DNA of 51,364 nt from Anaerolineae bacterium (lineage in GTDB: Bacteria > Chloroflexota > Anaerolineae > Aggregatilineales > Phototrophicaceae): NCBI GenBank assembly GCA_023382675.1, contig JAHDWN010000016.1, positions 85,753 to 137,116 of the forward strand. The letters are read 5' to 3'. A model generated the notes under the pieces. That model did not search any database. It saw only the letters and a list, made by a program, of their open reading frames with translations, and was not told the origin of the DNA. The number at the start of each line of letters is the position of its first letter. Positions within the stretch are counted from its first letter, which is position 1. The translations under genes were made by a program, and so were the position numbers. Positions 7,866-14,529 of the stretch are shown here, in pieces.

Positions 7866-8102
7866 TCACTCCACACGCACCACTGCCAGCAGCGGCAGCG
7901 CCAGGTCACGCAGCCGGGCGATCAGCCCATAGAGCGCGGCCTGGTCGGCGACCCGGCCTTGCAGGATCGTGCTGCCGTCGGCGCAGGCGGTGATGCTCAT
8001 GCCGTCGAAACTGGCGGCCCACTGCCGCGCATCCAGGCGCGCGGCCACGCGGATCTGGTAGATCGCGCCCGTGTCGTCGGGCAGTGGGGCGTGCGCGCTC
8101 AT
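7866..8102 (-). CDS. Conserved-looking small hypothetical protein
   Basis: 78 residues: MSAHAPLPDDTGAIYQIRVA, then a beta-alpha-beta pattern ending IARLRDLALPLLAVVRVE. The ATG overlaps the TGA of the upstream acyltransferase gene (ATGA), so the two are translationally coupled. The fold pattern suggests a small ligand-binding or regulatory domain, but no family motif is recognised. A role linked to phospholipid acylation is possible from context only. Confidence 0.7.
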   Translation of the reverse strand: MSAHAPLPDDTGAIYQIRVAARLDARQWAASFDGMSITACADGSTILQGRVADQAALYGLIARLRDLALPLLAVVRVE

Positions 8103-10687: not shown

Positions 10688-10766
10688 AATACATACCCAT
10701 GATGACGTATGGGTCTGGCGTCGCCAAGCCCAGGGCAATCCGCCGGATTGCACCTACCGTCCCCGT

Positions 10767-10841
10767 CATCCCGGCAGCCGCCGGAGCTGCACGGCGACGA
10801 CGCCGAACGCTGCGATGGTTAAGCCGATGCCTGCTTCATGG
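10767..10841 (-). pseudogene. C-terminal fragment of an EamA-type transporter gene (left duplication flanking TIR gene 1)
   Basis: Read on the minus strand this encodes EAGIGLTIAAFGVVAVQLRR, then LPG and its own TGA stop. The intact EamA gene at 11897-12826 encodes QAGIGFTIAAFGVVAVQLRR, LPG in its C-terminus. At DNA level 10769-10835 and 11933-11999 match at about 62 of 67 positions in the same orientation, including an unbroken stretch of more than 25 bases. The fragment has no upstream coding region, so it is a remnant and not a gene. Confidence 0.85.
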
Positions 10842-10849
10842 TAATTCGG

Positions 10850-10879
10850 TTCAACCATTTCACTAAATCACAGTATTAT
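10850..10879 (+). promoter_or_regulatory. Promoter-like sequence of TIR gene 1
   Basis: TTCAAC (10850-10855) and TATTAT (10874-10879) are separated by 18 bases. It lies just inside the left EamA duplication and 67 bases before the ATG, so the TIR gene probably has its own promoter. Confidence 0.45.
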
Positions 10880-10945
10880 GAAACAGCAGGTCACTCCGCC
10901 TCTCACTGACGCCTGGCTTGTTCAGCGTAGGACGAAGGAGGTGCT

Positions 10946-11869
10946 ATGACACGCATTTTCATCAGTTACAGCCGTACAGATCGACCTTTTGTCGATGAGT
11001 TCGTACCACTGCTGCGCAGGGTCTATGCGGATGCCGTTGTCTGGTTTGATGAGGCCATTCCGGGTGGGCACCAATGGTGGCAAGTGATCGTCAATGAAAT
11101 TACTCGCTGCGATCTGTTCATCTTTTTGCTCTCCAACGAGTCGCTTGGCTCCCCCTATTGCCAGGAGGAATTCCGCCACGCACTGCGCTTGCACAAACCT
11201 TTCTTGCCTGTGACCGTTCGCTCCAAGACGCAAATTGACGACAAAGTGCCAGATGACCTGCGCGGCGTGCTGCGACAAACCCAGTATGTCGATTTGTCCG
11301 GCGGCCTCAAGGATTATCAGGCCACGGCCGCGCTCTATGCCGCGCTCAACAGTTTGCTGCGAGAGATCCCTCCAGCCGCGCCGGCTTCAGTTTACGCGCA
11401 GCCGGTACGTGAACCGTCTCCGCCTGCACGCCCGCTCCAGCGACCGCCGTCCAAACGATCGCTGCCTGCATGGGTCCTGCTCCTCGCGCTCGTGCTGATC
11501 GGTGCGTGCGTTCTGGTGACGGCGCTTGCAGTCTTCCCAGATATCCTCGGGGAAATCGGCGCGAACCCACCCACGCGAGGCCCAACCGCCACCACTGGTA
11601 TTGTGGGTGGATTCGAAGGCTATGTCGCAGATAGTGGGCATGGGCTCGGCATCCCCGGCGTGCGGATCACGTTTGAGGCTGAGGACGGTAGCTACACAGA
11701 TGTGGTCGTCGCCGATGATAGGGGTGTTTATCAGATTGATCTGCCTGTGGGTCGTTACCGTGTCACAGCCACTCACGAGGACTACGAGACCTACTCAACA
11801 GGCACGGGCTTTTTCGTCGTCCGGGACTCAAGCATTCAGCATGGCGACATCACTATGGTGCACAAATAG
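10946..11869 (+). CDS. TIR-domain membrane protein with C-terminal carboxypeptidase-regulatory-like domain
   Basis: 307 residues, with a strong AAGGAGG site 5 bases before the ATG. The TIR domain covers about 1-135: IFISYSRTDRPFVDEF, then VWFDEAIPGGHQWW, LFIFLLSNESLG and YCQEEF. Glu75 occupies the place of the catalytic Glu in NAD-cleaving TIR domains. A Pro/Arg-rich linker (about 140-172) leads to one membrane helix (about 174-196). A Thr/Pro linker then leads to a beta-sandwich of the CarboxypepD_reg type (about 222-307; GYVADSGHGLGIPGVRITFE). The predicted topology is TIR inside and sandwich outside. A role in signalling or phage defence is inferred from the fold only. The gene lies between two copies of the EamA 3' end. 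Confidence 0.9.
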   Translation: MTRIFISYSRTDRPFVDEFVPLLRRVYADAVVWFDEAIPGGHQWWQVIVNEITRCDLFIFLLSNESLGSPYCQEEFRHALRLHKPFLPVTVRSKTQIDDKVPDDLRGVLRQTQYVDLSGGLKDYQATAALYAALNSLLREIPPAAPASVYAQPVREPSPPARPLQRPPSKRSLPAWVLLLALVLIGACVLVTALAVFPDILGEIGANPPTRGPTATTGIVGGFEGYVADSGHGLGIPGVRITFEAEDGSYTDVVVADDRGVYQIDLPVGRYRVTATHEDYETYSTGTGFFVVRDSSIQHGDITMVHK

Positions 11870-11896
11870 GAGCCTGCGGCTGTGAGCATTGTGTCA

Positions 11897-12826
11897 TCAC
11901 TTTGTCCTCGCGCCGTGTAATCGCCCTCTGCGTCCCGGCAGCCGCCGGAGCTGCACGGCCACGACACCGAACGCCGCGATGGTGAAGCCGATGCCCGCCT
12001 GCGTGCTGAAGCCCTCGCCCAGGAACAGCCAGGCCAGCAGCGGGATCTGCGCCAGCATCAGGTTGTTGATCAGGCTGCTCTCCATGGCGGTCAGCACGCG
12101 CAGCGAGCGATTCCAGAGCACGAAGGCGAAGGCGGTGTTGACGACCGCCATCCAGACGATCAACACCCAGGTCGTCGGCTGCAACTGGGGCAGGCCATAG
12201 AGCGCCATTGAGACGCCCAGCAGGATCGCCGCGCCGATGCCCATGCTGATGGTCGTGATCGCCAGCGGCGACAAGCGGCCCGCGCGGTTGAGCGCCCGCC
12301 CGAAGATCGACGAGACAGCGTTCGAGAGCATCCCGACCAGCACGATCAGGATGCCCAACTGTTCTGACGCTGGAAGGGCGAACGGGTAATAATAGATGCC
12401 GACGCCGCCCAGGTAGATCGCCACGCCGACCCACTGCAAGCCGGTGGGGCGTTCGCCCAGGAAGCGCATCCCCAGGCCGATGATGACCACCGTCGTGACG
12501 CTCAAGAGCAGGTTGACGCTGATCGCCGGGAGCAGGCTCAGGCCGATGAACTGCGATGCCATCGTCACCGCATAGTAGAGCAGCCCCAGCAGGAGCAGCC
12601 GGATGCCGTCCACACGGGTCATGCCGCGCACCTTGTGCTGCTCGCCGCGCGCCAGGAAGACGACCAGCACACAGGCGAAGGCCAGCCCGTAGCGCAGCGC
12701 GACAAAGGATAATGGCGTGATGTTGTCGCGCAGCCCGATTTTGATCAGCACAAAGGAAGACGACCAGAGGAACGTGACGAGCACAGCTTCGGCGATGGCG
12801 CGCGCACGCGGGGAGAATGAGGACAT
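11897..12826 (-). CDS. EamA/DMT-family transporter, probably guanidine- or metabolite-responsive exporter
   Basis: 309 residues from the ATG at 12826, with GGAGG 9 bases upstream. About ten hydrophobic helices form two EamA repeats (EAVLVTFLWSSSFVLIKIGL in the first, LSPLAITTISMGIGAAILLG in the second). The family exports small metabolites across the inner membrane. The 5' leader contains a probable ykkC-type aptamer, and guanidine-I riboswitches commonly control small exporters, so guanidine or a related cation is a candidate substrate. The last residues after LRRLPG (RRGRLHGARTK) are charged. The end of this gene is duplicated at 10.77 kb. Confidence 0.92.
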   Translation of the reverse strand: MSSFSPRARAIAEAVLVTFLWSSSFVLIKIGLRDNITPLSFVALRYGLAFACVLVVFLARGEQHKVRGMTRVDGIRLLLLGLLYYAVTMASQFIGLSLLPAISVNLLLSVTTVVIIGLGMRFLGERPTGLQWVGVAIYLGGVGIYYYPFALPASEQLGILIVLVGMLSNAVSSIFGRALNRAGRLSPLAITTISMGIGAAILLGVSMALYGLPQLQPTTWVLIVWMAVVNTAFAFVLWNRSLRVLTAMESSLINNLMLAQIPLLAWLFLGEGFSTQAGIGFTIAAFGVVAVQLRRLPGRRGRLHGARTK

Positions 12827-13200: not shown

Positions 13201-13230
13201 TTGCTGTTCCTGACGTATGAATATTATACT
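13201..13230 (+). promoter_or_regulatory. Promoter-like sequence of TIR gene 2
   Basis: TTGCTG (13201-13206) and TATACT (13225-13230) have an 18-base spacer. It overlaps the earliest possible TTG codon of the open frame, which argues for the later start at 13282. Confidence 0.55.
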
Positions 13231-13281
13231 AGGCTTTCGCCCCAATATCGGAAACCTGAAAAGAGTGGGAGTTGTGGCAAG

Positions 13282-14529
13282 TTGAATGCGGAATATGATG
13301 TGTTCCTCAGTTATAGCCGAACGGACGCATCGATGATGCGCCAAATACGGGATTCTCTGGAGCAAGACGACATTAAGGTCTGGACAGATGAACATCTCGA
13401 TTTGGATACGGCGCAATGGCAGAAAGAGATTGAATACGCGATTCTACACTCTTCTTGCCTCGTTGTTCTGCTTTCTCCCAGCGCCAAAGACTCAGACTGG
13501 GTCGGTAGGGAAATTTCCTATGCACAAGAACACAACCGGCAGATTATTCCTGTATTGATAAGCGGAGACGCAAAGACGGCTGTTCCACTTGCGCTCATTT
13601 CACATCAACGGCTTACATTCCATCAGTTGGCTTACACATCGGCACTCGAAAAGCTTACAGATTCGATATCTGGAGTTCTGGGACGTGAAACGCCATCTAT
13701 GATCCGAAAGCGAGAAGAAGAAAAGCGCGTTAACGACCTTGCTACCACTATTGTCAGGCTTGAGAAAGATCGTGAAGAGCAAGAGAAACGTATACAGGCC
13801 GAGGCGGAACGGCGAGCGAGAGACATTCTTCAAAAAGAAAGGGAAAATTCGGCGCAACGCACGGAGAAAACTCGGCGCTTCACAGCACCGATATTGAAGT
13901 TGTTACGCCAATTGATCTTTGTTCCCATCAGTCCTTTTGTGTTTTACACCGCCCCGTTTCGATTTCGCGAACAGGATCATCCTCGCACTGTCGCAGTGGT
14001 CACACTTGTACTGATCTTCGGATCGCTTTCGTTTCTCTATGCCGAAGACGCCATATTTGTAAGTGCTGGTAGAACAGTGCAAGATATTCTGGGATTCACG
14101 CCTGGACAAACAGAGGTCGGCTTTGTATTCATTTTCATTCCATTCGTTGTTTTACTTTGGTACTCATTTTCGACCGTGTACTCGCTTGCCGCAACGACTG
14201 AAACTAAAGAAGCAGTGACGGCATCGTTTGCTATTTCATTCGGATGCGCTATTGGAGCAGGTGTAGCGTACGCTCTCCAGCAGTATTCACTGAGTTTTCT
14301 TTCAAAAGTCACGTCAGGGCTGGTGGCAGGAATTCTGATTTTTGGAGCAGCCTATGTGGTTTCTTACTACTTTACTTTCATATATGTCCTCGGTGTCAAA
14401 AAGAAAATGGATTACCACAGGTACGTTCACTTGAGAAGTCTGCTTAACGTCCTCATTCTGATTGGGTTGATTGTGCTGGCTGTATGGTTGTTTGGCATGG
14501 ATGGGTGGATACACATTGTCAATGTCTGA
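13282..14529 (+). CDS. TIR-domain protein with coiled coil and multi-pass membrane domain
   Basis: 415 residues if started at the TTG at 13282 (MNAEYDVFLSYSRTD, the canonical TIR start); the frame is open back to 13201, where the promoter lies. The TIR domain spans about 1-130 with VWTDEHLDLDTAQW, LVVLLSPSAKDSDWV and Glu78 in WVGRE as the presumed catalytic residue. A charged coiled coil follows (about 155-212; KREEEKRVNDLATTIVRLEK). Then about five to six hydrophobic segments run to the C-terminus (VVTLVLIFGSLSFLYA, FVFIFIPFVVLLWYS). Base composition is clearly more AT-rich than the neighbours, suggesting recent acquisition. Function is inferred only: a membrane-tethered TIR effector or sensor. 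Confidence 0.88.
   Translation: MNAEYDVFLSYSRTDASMMRQIRDSLEQDDIKVWTDEHLDLDTAQWQKEIEYAILHSSCLVVLLSPSAKDSDWVGREISYAQEHNRQIIPVLISGDAKTAVPLALISHQRLTFHQLAYTSALEKLTDSISGVLGRETPSMIRKREEEKRVNDLATTIVRLEKDREEQEKRIQAEAERRARDILQKERENSAQRTEKTRRFTAPILKLLRQLIFVPISPFVFYTAPFRFREQDHPRTVAVVTLVLIFGSLSFLYAEDAIFVSAGRTVQDILGFTPGQTEVGFVFIFIPFVVLLWYSFSTVYSLAATTETKEAVTASFAISFGCAIGAGVAYALQQYSLSFLSKVTSGLVAGILIFGAAYVVSYYFTFIYVLGVKKKMDYHRYVHLRSLLNVLILIGLIVLAVWLFGMDGWIHIVNV

Follow-up and report, generated by a model that had tools for sequence, protein, structure and literature searches.

How single defence-type genes arrive in chromosomes without a transposase or an integrase is, to our knowledge, still largely open. The question is raised by a locus of an Anaerolineae bacterium (contig JAHDWN010000016.1, positions 85,753 to 137,116; this whole stretch of 51,364 nucleotides is hereafter called the window), where a gene encoding a TIR-domain protein (TIR gene 1) lies between two copies of the 3' end of an EamA transporter gene. 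Which event placed the TIR gene there, and which of the two copies is the older one, can be addressed by comparing the copies with each other, with a related genome, and with similar loci elsewhere.

A TIR gene flanked by duplicated EamA 3' ends

The two copies are found in the same orientation and are alike at 61 of 66 positions, the left copy being located 1164 bases downstream of the right copy in the sense of EamA (Table 1). The repeat had been described in the initial annotation with about 62 identities over 67 bases; the repeat itself is confirmed, and the count is corrected to 61 of 66 (or 61 of 67 if a 67th position is included). It is the longest direct repeat found between window positions 8000 and 16000, where it forms a single family (77 nt at 87% identity, with a core of 66 nt at 92%, and a start-to-start distance of 1164), the next direct family reaching just 34 nt at 74%. 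All five differences between the copies fall in third codon positions. As previously noted, only one of them alters a residue (Phe to Leu), and the other four are silent. The ending LRRLPG-TGA, also given in the annotation, applies to the orphan copy but not to the living EamA gene, which runs for 11 more codons (RRGRLHGARTK) to a stop at 11897.

The duplicated end is not a dispersed repeat. In a pool of 2.55 Mb drawn from three congeners (the genome of the window, G000; Anaerolineae bacterium SJ143, G002; and G013), a search with either copy retrieves only the two copies themselves and the single EamA end of SJ143 (E <= 1e-6). An EamA protein search of the window's own genome returned four matches, namely the true gene, the fragment encoded by the orphan copy (26 residues), and two paralogs of only 24-27% identity. 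A longer EamA remnant around the left copy, which the annotation had considered as evidence against an insertion, was not found by this search.

TIR gene 1 is convergent with EamA and is the sole sizeable gene with a family match between the two copies. Its TIR domain scores well above the curated cut-off (80.5 bits for PF13676, versus 28), and weak PADLOC matches to ThsB (best 8.1e-5) accompany it; the gene is a putative immune-type (defence-type) TIR gene. The annotation had assigned to the segment only this gene and its promoter; the former holds, but a consensus scan found no sigma-70-like site for TIR gene 1 (0 found, versus 0.7 expected in shuffles), and an own promoter is thus unproven. 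In agreement with the annotation, Pfam searches turned up no recombinase, either in the segment flanked by the copies or in six proteins tested nearby, and no homing endonuclease ORF in that segment. No relatives of the TIR protein were confirmed in viral contigs. The genome as a whole (6.4 Mb) contains 64 TIR_2 matches, some of them close together, and 27 Uma2 matches.

Table 1. Features of the EamA locus (positions in the window), followed by the loci at which a gene end is duplicated around inserted genes.
Feature	Position or locus	Strand	Remarks
Palindromic flank beside left copy	10717..10758	-	similar to post-EamA flank of MAG SJ143 (local alignment)
Left (orphan) copy of EamA 3' end	10769..10834	-	...VVAVQLRRLPG then TGA; 61/66 identical to right copy
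Inserted segment, about 1.1 kb	10835..11932	.	no match in SJ143 (G002) between EamA and the acyltransferase gene
TIR gene 1: TIR_2 domain, membrane-crossing stretch (by eye), carboxypeptidase-regulatory-like domain	10946..11869	+	PF13676 1.9e-22, PF13620 6.9e-10
EamA transporter gene, intact, 309 aa	11897..12826	-	PF00892 4.1e-34; 85% identical to SJ143 orthologue
Right copy, within living EamA gene	11933..11998	-	pairwise alignment with left copy
TIR gene 2, on opposite side of EamA	13201..14529	+	PF13676 4.1e-22; other short ORFs there in SJ143
3' end: EamA / TIR gene 1	window
3' end: Eco57I-type methylase, array of short ends around 181-residue ORF and TIR genes	L057
3' end: resolvase (by eye) / TIR gene of 1655 residues	L070
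3' end: MutS (by eye) / Uma2 (putative restriction endonuclease) gene	L081
3' end: adenine deaminase (by eye) / 554-residue gene	L149		below-cut-off ORC-CDC6-like match
3' end: Fur-like regulator (by eye) / two ORFs without family	L203
3' end: ABC permease (by eye) / RibD_C protein	L214
5' end: mreC (by eye) / GNAT	L079
5' end: dnaE (by eye) / DUF433 gene and second short ORF	L191
5' end: 560-residue ORF / 551-residue ORF	L196
5' end: glycosyltransferase-like start (by eye) / three imuA-imuB-dnaE2-like genes (by eye)	L051 8399-14207		direct repeats of about 184 bases

A single-copy site without the TIR gene

In a protein search of 41 genomes, a close EamA orthologue outside the window's own genome was found in one genome only, that of SJ143 (JADLAY010000006.1; 85% identity), the next matches being at 51-52%. 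The block formed by recD2 (named by eye), EamA, and an acyltransferase gene is collinear between the window and SJ143. No TIR gene separates EamA from the acyltransferase gene in SJ143, and both window copies match its single EamA end; the SJ143 EamA also has a longer tail. The comparison with relatives proposed in the annotation, for which one relative was available, thus gives a TIR-free site with one EamA end, and supports the proposal of an insertion at the EamA 3' end that rebuilt this end.

The flanks allow the two copies to be told apart. The outer flank of the left copy resembles the palindromic flank that follows EamA in SJ143 (only 1 of 1000 base shuffles scored as high), whereas the flank of the right copy matches it no better than chance (593 of 1000 shuffles were as good). 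Thus, from these alignments, the left copy appears to mark the old junction, with TIR gene 1 and the right copy inside it. Within the pool, the window version of the palindromic flank matches itself alone, and the SJ143 version has two further partial matches. The DNA match to SJ143 is absent on the TIR gene 2 side of EamA, and that side is variable too. Sliding identity between the two EamA genes shows no clear mosaic break (77-95 identities per window of 100, with 84 in the last one). SJ143, at 15% divergence, is the only relative in which the EamA site can be recognized, so that the event is undatable and its donor unseen.

Duplicated gene ends at other loci

The pool comprises two sets. 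The TIR-chosen set (1.353 Mb) contains 53 stretches of G000 (0.80 Mb, with 63 of the 64 TIR_2 matches), 20 G013 stretches adjacent to TIR matches (0.30 Mb, with 32 such matches; one of these stretches is only 3 kb, next to a TIR match), and 15 stretches of SJ143 (0.25 Mb including the 20-kb EamA locus; 23 TIR matches). It includes the SJ143 EamA locus (L022), which was not TIR-chosen, and two small overlaps (C19 and C43 of G000). The comparison set (0.4 Mb per genome, 1.2 Mb in total) was taken regardless of TIR genes and is not free of them. We listed direct repeats of at least 40 bases lying 150-10000 bases apart, predicted genes as a greedy longest-ORF list, and classed loci by eye. Pairs in which both copies overlap one predicted gene were dropped, which reduced the 0, 1, 3, and 19 pairs found in four sets to 0, 1, 1, and 8 listed; two other repeat listings gave 22 and 13 rows.

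At 11 loci, including the window and classed by eye, a gene end of 52-186 bp is duplicated around inserted genes; seven are 3' ends and four are 5' ends (Table 1). The TIR-chosen set, which amounts to 53% of all sequence examined, contains ten of the 11, as against one in the remaining 1.2 Mb (P = 0.01, or 0.017 without the window). Six rows from a dense repeat cluster in G013_C1, part of the comparison set, were left uncounted, and counting them would weaken this contrast. The association with TIR genes is modest, and the link may be to variable regions instead, because the inserted gene is often not a TIR gene. The cluster in question (386-396 kb of G013_C1; about 1386000-1396000 in G013 C1) is made of mutually similar repeats and short ORFs, with one pair 99% identical.

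Other listed repeats were examined and not counted. They comprised pairs of paralogs (in L049, L210 773 nt, L212, L224 twice, the two Uma2 genes of L081, G000_C6, the one listed in G002_C34, and the first of G013_C1), internal repeats (L096), a palindromic repeat on either side of a gene (L205, with a similar copy in L201), a unit common to L054 and L220, and short or unclear cases (L055, L087, L210 49 nt, and L219). In L063, kept as partial and also uncounted, a TIR gene lies between copies of a stretch located about 115 bases before the gene end.

Two of these loci can be followed further. MutS has one copy of its end in SJ143, the only locus used among 15 retrieved. The alignment of the orphan to SJ143 extends, weakly, about 16 bases beyond the stop, while that of the living end does not. 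Sliding identity of MutS (134-146 identities per window of 150, the last window being lowest at 132) shows no clear break. The MutS locus also has two Uma2 genes (L081 5085-5774 and 14194-14883; 690 nt, 86% identity) with about 110 common upstream bases, one of which lies between the duplicated MutS ends; the shared block may represent the extent of a moving unit. The second locus is the methylase array (L057 5429-8350), in which a methylase-type 3' end is present four times. Between successive copies lie a short stretch, an ORF of 181 residues, and a TIR gene of 402 residues, and the series ends beside another TIR gene, in an arrangement that resembles a cassette array. The living methylase gene and the first orphan are 81% identical over 186 bases, and the short orphans are 89-95% identical to one another over 66-80 bases (six pairs). 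The living end thus differs more from the first orphan than the short orphans do among themselves, as expected if a foreign end arrived last.

Taken at this level, the similar layout around other genes, in the window's own genome and in two relatives, suggests that recombination can slot genes in at the ends of others, a second copy of the end being left behind.

Silent and residue-changing differences

Under duplication of a single allele followed by decay of the orphan, residue-changing differences should account for at least about 53-67% of all differences between the copies. Their share is lower for the adenine deaminase pair (2 of 11, P = 0.005), for the resolvase pair (4 of 14, P = 0.021), and for the methylase and its first orphan (9 of 36, P = 2.6e-7). 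At EamA (1 of 5, P = 0.15) the deviation is not significant, and decay is not rejected for MutS (2 of 3), the Fur-like regulator (3 of 6), the ABC permease (6 of 12), or three pairs of array orphans (0 of 1, 1 of 3, and 5 of 5). Three of the ten pairs therefore reject plain duplication and decay at 0.05, and after correction for ten tests the methylase pair alone does so. The first methylase orphan (a 133-residue ORF) could instead be the remnant of a second, paralogous methylase gene, and the resolvase orphan could likewise derive from a second, paralogous gene. Which adenine deaminase end is native is left undecided by the relatives: among 13 read, 11 had a usable end, five of them nearer the gene's end, five nearer the orphan, and one tied.

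With SJ143 as outgroup, four of the five EamA differences fall on the left branch, all in third codon positions, and the right copy has one change. This is compatible with the annotated view of the left copy as the former coding end of a donor allele, although at P = 0.15 it is not proof; the third-position changes lean towards two alleles. The silent divergence between the copies, significant at three loci, suggests that the incoming DNA in some cases supplied a gene end of its own, as would result from homology-guided capture.

Probable origin of the insertion

We consider it probable that TIR gene 1 entered at the EamA 3' end in an insertion that duplicated a long part of the target, and that the incoming DNA, which carried its own gene end, was anchored by homology and recombined illegitimately. 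DNA in which the TIR gene was joined to a homologous EamA 3' end would have entered the cell, probably from a related strain, and would have been anchored in EamA by homologous recombination. Its far end would then have been joined illegitimately about 66 bases inside the end of the resident gene. The right copy would have stayed as the end of the living gene, and the left copy would have been displaced by 1.1 kb while still lying beside the old downstream flank. Such a process would need no recombinase. Moreover, only duplications spanning the whole gene end spare the target gene, which would explain why the survivors are found at gene ends, both 3' and 5'. The repeat, the single-copy SJ143 site, the similar outer flank, the recurrence at other loci, and the mainly silent differences at three of these are direct observations; which way the event ran, where the DNA came from, and how it was anchored and joined are inferred. 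The lack of a clear mosaic break relative to SJ143, in EamA as in MutS, counts against this reading, as do the non-significant silent excess at EamA itself and the possible paralogous source of the methylase and resolvase orphans.

The main rival is a true target duplication, in which a staggered break or capture doubled about 66 bp of one resident allele around the TIR gene and the orphan then decayed. It predicts the same anatomy, and seven of the ten pairs, EamA included, do not reject it. The two residue changes of the MutS orphan and the loss of about 40 bases from the ABC permease orphan are what decay predicts, and with SJ143 as outgroup the left EamA copy has four changes against one in the right copy. 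The third-position location of all five EamA differences argues against it, however, and the adenine deaminase, resolvase, and methylase pairs reject it. We therefore favour homology-anchored entry from a relative, and regard plain duplication as possible but rather unlikely.

It is less likely that the segment is a non-autonomous integrative element using the EamA 3' end as its attachment site and mobilized in trans by a site-specific recombinase. The anatomy would fit an integrated element that provides a replacement 3' end, and several orphan ends are of similar length, but no recombinase was found among the six neighbouring proteins tested and the duplicated ends are locus-specific (no similarity between loci at E <= 1e-6, a threshold too coarse for short cores). 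In addition, 5' ends are duplicated as well. The same three observations speak against the dedicated site-specific cassette that had been proposed for this locus. Improbable to a similar degree is the idea of unrecognised mobile cassettes in Anaerolineae, in which genes would travel joined to a replacement end of their target neighbour and pile up in arrays, moved by host-encoded machinery that acts on gene ends, much as integron cassettes do but without attC sites. The cargo would then include TIR genes, Uma2, a weakly ATPase-like gene, and a toxin-antitoxin-like pair (by eye).

An EamA tandem duplication that subsequently lost its second copy, with the TIR gene taking its place, would account for a left copy that looks once coding. 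This is very unlikely, as no EamA sequence beyond the 66 bp was found around the left copy, and as the similar patterns at unrelated genes, together with the array of short ends, would need many such histories. Finally, the layout matches that of diversity-generating retroelements, which have a variable repeat at the 3' end of a gene and an orphan copy nearby, but a left copy acting as template is scarcely credible, as the five differences include three with A in the left copy and none with A in the right one, and as the genome's only RVT_1 match, a retron-like RT-TIR protein, is encoded on a different contig. This is a fused reverse transcriptase-TIR protein of 493 residues (L047 7879-9360, G000 C27), whose best PADLOC match is RT-TIR_XII (2.1e-136).

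Relation to known systems

Insertion with long target duplication was reportedly described by Nobusato in 2000, as later papers have it. It was recognized by comparing Helicobacter pylori strains, often involves restriction-modification genes and variable duplication lengths, and was proposed as a distinct mode of gene mobility (PMC1643837, PMC3031569). Similarly, the duplications reported here are direct and of variable length (66 bp in the window; 52-186 bp over the 11 loci), and an empty single-copy site exists in SJ143 for both EamA and MutS. The differences lie in the cargo (TIR and other genes), in the host group (Anaerolineae), in the involvement of both 3' and 5' ends, and in the allele-like nature of the copies in three cases. 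The window locus is best filed as a variant of this process with a TIR gene as probable cargo and a mechanism that we infer, because the inserted gene (TIR_2 plus CarboxypepD_reg) is not of the restriction-modification kind.

Homology-facilitated illegitimate recombination has been proposed for T6SS immunity arrays of Vibrio, in a paper that also cites orphan 3' ends of Rhs genes (PMC5361080). In those arrays, a newcomer is likewise anchored by homology at one end and older ends are pushed downstream into strings of orphans. There, however, the incoming effector-immunity module takes the place of the effector, or of a domain of it, and the immunity gene is kept, whereas in the present case the newcomer is unrelated to the target gene, which remains whole. 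In fungal mitochondrial atp6, atp9, cox2, and nad3, the C-terminal end is duplicated beyond an inserted endonuclease ORF (PMC3630166). As in the EamA locus, the inserted ORF lies between two versions of the C-terminal end that are more alike in protein than in DNA. The fungal ORF is an endonuclease, unlike TIR gene 1, although the MutS case does carry Uma2, a putative restriction endonuclease.

Phages and genomic islands integrate at the 3' ends of protein genes such as icd, which thereby receive another 3' end that differs at silent sites. Such elements carry an integrase and reuse one site; neither was seen here, in the Pfam search of the inserted gene and six neighbouring proteins and in the comparison of loci at E <= 1e-6. 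A literature search returned no defence genes at duplicated 3' ends; we do not claim that the pattern is unpublished in Anaerolineae.

If duplications of gene ends are a common footprint of gene arrival, they would make it possible to orient insertions, would reveal the empty-site allele, and would allow a genome-wide count of arrivals.
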